NCBI GenBank assembly: GCA_025357795.1 | Contig: JANYLN010000010.1 | Span: 1 to 36,931, forward strand | Source: Planctomycetota bacterium | GTDB taxonomy: Bacteria > Planctomycetota > Phycisphaerae > UBA1845 > JANYLN01 | Direction: 5' to 3' | Length of the DNA: 36,931 nt | Shown here: positions 25,050 through 26,354 of the stretch, piece by piece | Numbering within the stretch: the first letter of the stretch is position 1 | Layout of the letters: every line of letters begins with the position of its first letter | The notes under the pieces: generated by a model | The model's input: the letters and a program-made list of their open reading frames with translations, nothing else | Told to the model about the DNA's origin: nothing | Databases searched by the model: none | Position numbers and translations under genes: made by a program

Positions 25050-26354
25050 ATGATTAAACGTGCAAGTCATCCTTGGCGAAGATTCCATGCCGGGCAGGAT
25101 TTCGGTGGGACCCGGTTGGCGCAGTCCGGTGGTGGGATGCGGAGGCTGGAGGGCAGAAGTGTCGCCATCGAAGCCGGTCTACAGTACTACCTTCGCTGCA
25201 TCAATGAAGCGCCTCTGCTCACGGCCGAGCAGGAGCACGAGTTGGGGAGGAAGGTGCACGCCGGGATCGAAGCGGGCGAGCAGCTCACTGACGGCGAGAT
25301 CGACATGGCGACCTTCGAGCGGCTGCAGCTCGAATCGCAGGAGGCCCGCACGGTGATGGTGCGGTCGAACCTGCGGCTCGTGGTCAATATTGCCAAGCAG
25401 TTCGGGAATCGGGGGCTGCCGCTGTCGGACCTGATCGAAGAGGGCAACCTGGGGTTGCTGCGGGCGGTCGAGGGGTATGACCCGTCGCACGAGACGCGTT
25501 TCAGCACGTATGCCAGTTGGTGGATCAAGCAGGCCATCAAGCGGGCGCTGATCAACAGCGTCCAGTCGATTCATATTCCGGCGTACATGGTCGAGGAGAT
25601 CAGCCGGTGGAAGCAGGCGACGGCGGAGCTGGAGGACAAGCTCGGCCGACCGGCGACGATGGAGGAGATGTGCCAGCATCTGGAGATCAAGCCGCGCAAG
25701 GCGCGGATCATCCGCAAGGCCATCCGGGCGATCAGCAACCCGGCGCGGGCGACCGAGGAAGAGGAAGGTCTGACGCTATCGGAGATGATTGCGGACGAGA
25801 AGACGCCGCGGCCTGACGAGTTGTTGTTCAACGAATCGGATGCCTCGTCGGTGCGGGACGTACTGGCGAAGCTGGATGAGCGGGAATCGACGATCCTGCG
25901 GCTGCGGTTCGGGCTGGACGGCAACCGGCTGATGGAGTTGACGGATGTGGCCGGGCAGGCGGAGGTCGAGGTCCGCGAGATATGCGAGCGGGTTAACCGG
26001 GCGGTTCGCGACTGCGGCGACGAGGTGCTGCAGAAGGCGATCGGCCTGATGTTTTACGCGTCGCGGCCTGAGGCGACCCTGCTGGACAGCCTGGCCGAGC
26101 AGTTGGGCTGCAGCGTAGCGTTTCTGAGGCAGCGGCTGCAGTCGCTGTACGACTCGCTGGAAGGCGAGGAGCACGCGTGGGTGGGCATGCGGTTTGGGCT
26201 GGTGCCGCAGGAAGGGATGACGCTGAAGGAGATCGGCAAGAAGATCGGTCTTACTCGCGAGCGGGTCCGCCAGATCGAGCACGGGGCCCTGGAGAAGATG
26301 AACCGGATGATGAGTGAGGAAGAGGATCGGACGGTGGGGCTGAGGACGGAGTAA
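25050..26354 (+). CDS. sigma-70 family factor with an apparently duplicated region 4
   Basis: This is a primary/group 2-type sigma factor of 434 residues. Region 1.2 is at about 45-70 and region 2 at 97-170, with the -10-recognition stretch [19 protein letters not shown]. Region 3 lies at 175-255. Region 4 appears twice. The first copy (265-322) starts [20 protein letters not shown] and has a degenerate helix-turn-helix. The second (361-422) has [19 protein letters not shown], then [17 protein letters not shown], the usual -35 reader. About 38 residues separate them. Normal factors have one copy. ATG 25050 has a poorly spaced GGAG, and ATG 25137 is an alternative start. Either keeps region 1.2. 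Confidence 0.85.
   Translation: [434 protein letters not shown]

Follow-up and report, generated by a model that had tools for sequence, protein, structure and literature searches.

A group 2 sigma-70 factor with a second region-4-derived segment in a planctomycete of the class Phycisphaerae

The window, that is the whole stretch of 36,931 nucleotides analysed here, belongs to a fragmented MAG of the planctomycete class Phycisphaerae (3.54 Mb, 338 contigs, 88% complete), which is the sole genome of its family among the genomes compared. The open reading frame at 25050-26354, whose coordinates, frame and motifs match exactly those of an earlier note on this DNA, shows Pfam matches to sigma-factor regions 1.2, 2 and 3 followed by two Sigma70_r4 stretches, and the scores of PF04542 (67 bits) and PF04545 (54.7 bits) both place it above the cut-off for the sigma-70 family. 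Assignment to group 1 (RpoD, the primary sigma factors) calls for region 1.1 together with RpoD-level similarity; Pfam gave no match to region 1.1 in this ORF, the NCBIfam RpoD model reached 233.5 bits for a cut-off of 354 bits, and the best NCBIfam matches, the RpoD/RpoS/SigB models, each stayed below their own cut-off. The ORF has the features of group 2, namely regions 1.2 to 4 without 1.1 and orthology to a paralogue distinct from RpoD in genomes where RpoD is present as well. By homology, it is a real sigma-70 family protein of group 2 (non-RpoD), and this family is spread through its taxonomic class. Since the N-terminal 29-36 or so listed residues are without counterpart in the orthologues, and since GC3 drops in this part of the gene (0.74 across codons 1-100 versus 0.86-0.89 elsewhere), translation may start at M30 (25137).

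The neighbours of the sigma gene are a Y-family (DinB-like) polymerase gene directly upstream (23400-24731, plus strand) and a gene for a YchF-like GTPase. DNA-repair genes near it encode a UvrD-like helicase with a PD-(D/E)XK nuclease domain (4980-8720, minus strand) and RuvB (21902-22966, plus strand). The window also holds a kinase-sigma pair on the minus strand, in which the gene of a Ser/Thr kinase with WD40 repeats (1260 aa, 27848-31630) lies just downstream of that of a small sigma factor with region 2 (31791-32462). In three relatives (L058, L059 and L060), the orthologous sigma gene adjoins a ribosomal-protein-S1-like gene and is close to rpoD, as well as to dnaG in L058 and L060. Most relatives of the order possess two such sigma70 factors, an RpoD (about 600 aa) alongside the orthologue of 300-350 aa. 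No RpoD of about 600 aa was found in the MAG, though the protein is present in the majority of the 60 order relatives that were searched. We rejected the idea that the sigma factor described here is the sole, and hence primary, sigma of the genome, because the MAG also lacks dnaG, a gene adjacent or close to rpoD in two of three relatives inspected; the simplest reading is that the rpoD-dnaG locus probably falls in an unassembled stretch. If RpoD were truly absent, this sigma factor would be the main one.

Table 1. Features of the sigma factor gene and of its extended region 4 (positions of the window)
Feature	Position	Strand	Remarks
Sigma factor CDS	25050..26354	+	434 aa as listed; translation possibly starts at M30 (25137)
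Region 1.2 (aa 44-75)	25179..25274	+	Pfam PF00140, 8.8e-9
Region 2 (aa 103-167)	25356..25550	+	Pfam PF04542, 1.1e-18; conserved columns kept
Region 3 (aa 182-257)	25593..25820	+	Pfam PF04539
Module 1, canonical region 4.1 (aa 264-291)	25839..25922	+	14/25 identities with the orthologue consensus; all 5 conserved columns kept
Module 1, putative decayed region 4.2 (aa 292-322)	25923..26015	+	TRERVRQ aligns with AEVEVRE; mixed support
Lineage-specific 98-aa insert (aa 292-389), exactly between ancestral 4.1 and 4.2	25923..26216	+	Seen in one genome
Middle helical segment (aa 323-355), resembles generic helix-turn-helix	26016..26114	+	Weak Pfam HTH matches; modelled helices 325-335, 343-352, 356-369
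Module 2, diverged region 4.1 (aa 356-389)	26115..26216	+	18.0 vs 8.3 +/- 1.8 in shuffles, 1/500
Module 2, canonical region 4.2 (aa 390-422) with -35-reading helix TRERVRQIE	26217..26315	+	25/33 identical to consensus, 15/16 conserved columns

When aligned with the orthologue consensus, the two region-4 modules delineated in Table 1 appear degenerate in opposite halves. Region 4.1 of module 1 is the better conserved (14/25 identities and 5/5 conserved columns versus 7/25 and 3/5 in module 2), and the reverse holds for region 4.2, with 8/33 identities and 3/16 conserved columns in module 1 (BLASTP register) versus 25/33 and 15/16 in module 2. The two modules align with one another through 4.1 and 4.2 (single-pair BLASTP, E 6e-4), and no DNA-level repeat between them remains. 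The HIPAYMV motif, which immediately precedes region 3, and region 4.1 of module 1 are 103 residues apart, as in 37 of the 43 orthologues, and because this distance is unchanged the first 4.1 should reach its usual place. The only intact -35 reader lies about 98 residues further along the sequence than usual. A generic helix-turn-helix-like stretch (26016-26165), which overlaps the first helix of module 2, ranked second to the true 4.2 in a scan for 4.2 without gaps and could represent a third DNA-binding element.

Module 2 (residues 356-422 or so) aligns over its full length with an HMM of the orthologues' region 4 (74-78 bits) and thus matches a whole region 4; in the search for two complete sigma4 domains, sequence homology finds both 4.1 and 4.2 in this second module. 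The score of its 4.1 was exceeded or equalled by only 1 of 500 shuffles, and residues 356-389 are, on these alignments, clearly homologous to region 4.1. The presence of a second region-4-derived segment, proposed in the earlier note, is supported, and its 4.2 is canonical. The first module had likewise been described as a region 4 with a degenerate helix-turn-helix, and here the 4.1 half stands as canonical but a complete sigma4 fold is not supported, its 4.2 being borderline by sequence and lacking a helix-turn-helix in the AlphaFold2 model. On the one hand, the Pfam r4 match continues through residues 292-322 (profile positions 1-46 of 50; 22.4 bits for a cut-off of 24.1), while in eight shuffles all matches end at profile position 18 with 18.7-19.3 bits, and a broad local r4 HMM gives 29.2 bits versus 22.8 +/- 1.2, a score reached by 1 of 500 shuffles. 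On the other hand, a narrow PSSM built for the 4.2 of the orthologues gives no significant score on 292-322 (155/500 shuffles), and AlphaFold2 draws a single helix there. The support for a decayed region 4.2 is thus mixed: the stretch may be one, and likely is. R584, E585 and R588 of E. coli sigma70 read the -35 element (PMC2613000). In a gapless register, the 4.2 of module 1 has other residues in place of R584 and E585 but keeps an arginine where R588 would be; as far as an alignment can predict DNA binding, the -35 contact residues are absent from module 1. It is consequently safer to speak of two 4.1, one sure 4.2 and one likely decayed 4.2 than of two region-4 modules.

The AlphaFold2 model was built from an alignment (A4) that is neutral as to which 4.1 pairs with which 4.2, two others (A2 and A3) being left out of folding as both mixed up the modules. 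Its mean pLDDT is 76, with regions 1.2 to 3 confident; with a pTM of 0.46 and an output that omits contact errors, the model leaves the packing between the modules undecided. Region 4.1 of module 1 forms helices 262-274 and 277-287, residues 294-322 a single helix of low confidence without helix-turn-helix (pLDDT below 50 over 292-302), and helices 356-369, 373-382, 392-398 and 403-433 follow in sigma4 order, so that in module 2 the 4.1 stands directly before the 4.2, their helices spaced as in a whole sigma4. Modelling of the C-terminus alone was poor (pLDDT 50), and Foldseek searches with the sigma model returned whole sigma factors and nothing else.

How far does this architecture extend among the relatives? 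Read at the level of residues, region 4 is single and contiguous in 46/46 of them (43 orthologues and 3 RpoDs), 4.1 being directly followed by 4.2, in agreement with the single region 4 that the earlier note gave for known primary and group 2 sigmas. Within the same class, the group 2 orthologues (about 300-350 aa; e.g., L007, L062 and L068), 49-60% identical to the sigma factor described here, agree with it in regions 1.2, 2 and 3, in the length of the linker and in the two canonical halves of region 4, but their region 4 is one contiguous unit devoid of the 98-aa insert. The sigma factor is matched at E <= 1e-60 in 213 other genomes of the 397 of the class sample, and among the class matches listed no alignment extends beyond about residue 302, whereas in a relative that shared the insert it would be expected to continue across it. 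Searched alone, the insert is absent from all other genomes among the 114 of the order and the 392 of the phylum, and it returned chance matches only from plasmids, the PDB and viral contigs as well as from the order and the phylum; two candidate matches were rejected, one being antisense to a gyrB-like gene (L078) and the other lying inside a phage structural protein (L079). A peptide scan of the genome contig collection for close relatives returned none. Across the 397 class genomes, a DNA pattern for a long 4.1-to-4.2 spacing matched in the window alone, and no match to the spacing pattern was found in the genome contig collection or in viral contigs; such patterns fix some codons as well as the spacing and therefore miss other variants. 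The earlier note took homologues with one region 4 and a plain spacer as a refutation of its proposal: the homologues do all have one region 4, and to that extent count against it, but none has a plain spacer. Because the insert is absent from them altogether, comparison of the sequences indicates that the second region-4 segment is a lineage-specific gain and not a conserved planctomycete design; the architecture is seen in one MAG and in no second species.

The closest solved structures are SigA proteins (phmmer E 1.6e-49 to Streptomyces SigA, 8dy7). With these primary sigmas, including Mycobacterium SigA and the RpoD of about 600 aa of the relatives (35-38% identity, or 32-34% in the alignment in which the short orthologues reach 49-60%), the protein shares the domain order and the -35-reading helix; they differ by a single region 4, and region 1.1 is lacking here. 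ECF sigmas with C-terminal extensions, such as SigG1 of ECF56 (PMC7730460), also carry extra C-terminal material, but in their case it is an unrelated domain after sigma4, whereas the extra part here interrupts region 4 and in part consists of region 4. We found no description of a tandem region 4 in a group 1 or group 2 sigma in the open-access literature, which is weak evidence of novelty.

The fact that the two modules have decayed in opposite halves favours a division of labour between them, or a single sigma4 assembled from both, over two equal -35 readers. It is tempting to hypothesize, at somewhat less than an even chance, that region 4 of this group 2 sigma70 was duplicated in tandem within the lineage and that the copies then decayed in opposite halves, module 1 in 4.2 and module 2 in 4.1. 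Module 1 would sit at the RNA exit channel, and module 2, tethered behind it and bearing the only intact -35-reading helix, would read the -35 element from a displaced or more flexible position. The contact of sigma4 with the flap sets the -10/-35 spacing (PMC2613000), and the promoters served by this sigma would then show an unusual or relaxed spacing. Duplication is supported by the two Pfam r4 stretches in one protein and by the second 4.1 that the insert holds ahead of the canonical 4.2; the opposite decay, the significance of this second 4.1, the unchanged linker to module 1, the host-like GC3 and the ordinary tree branch also count for it. Against it count the borderline score of module 1's 4.2 with the orthologue PSSM and the lack of a helix-turn-helix there in the model, the want of a second species and the loss of any DNA-level repeat; moreover, a plain duplication of region 4 leaves segment 323-355 unexplained.

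A nearly equal rival, possible though doubtful in its own right, is that the 4.1 of module 1 and the 4.2 of module 2 fold as one normal sigma4, from whose 4.1-4.2 turn the 98 residues would loop out to form an accessory helical domain that might engage a regulator or upstream DNA; the likeness of its end to region 4 would then be a remnant. The two conserved halves are indeed exactly those of the orthologues' single region 4, and the insert, predicted to be helical with a helix-turn-helix-like middle, falls precisely in the loop between them; yet its last 34 residues are recognisable as a 4.1 right before 4.2 (1/500), which a free domain need not keep. As module 2 retains this recognisable 4.1 of its own, we slightly favour divided labour.

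That the segment is a relic, a near-neutral duplication decaying without special role in an ordinary group 2 sigma, seems rather improbable: its occurrence in one genome only and the borderline decay of module 1's 4.2 would fit, but the insert keeps the reading frame over its 98 codons, its GC3 of 0.89 is host-like and matches the remainder of the gene, its codon-position GC equals that of the flanks, helices are predicted throughout, the gene's tree branch (0.77) is ordinary and not unusually long, and a displaced 4.2 in a sigma factor is unlikely to be without effect. That two sigma genes were joined into a chimera by assembly or binning might be feared in so fragmented a MAG (338 contigs, 88% complete) but is very improbable, given a continuous open reading frame and codon usage, a segment before module 2 (323-355) that is unlike any sigma 3.2 linker and absent elsewhere in the genome or phylum sample, a 4.2 in module 2 that is 25/33 identical to the orthologues' own, and no hidden region 4 in the other frames. 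We accordingly regard the extra region-4 segment as real and lineage-specific, with a small doubt left as to a chimera.

Sigma4 keeps the -35 reader at the beta flap and thereby fixes the -10 to -35 distance. Whether its two jobs, that of anchor at the exit channel and flap and that of -35 reader, are split here over tandem copies, leading to the recognition of a non-standard promoter geometry, is doubtful but possible. Should the insert be an accessory domain or a relic only, it would be a curiosity of one lineage. Conversely, a natural sigma with a second region-4 segment between the anchor and the reading helix would allow a direct test of the sigma4 spacing rule and, if the divided labour proposed above is true, would clearly exemplify how the copies of an internally duplicated domain can decay in complementary fashion.
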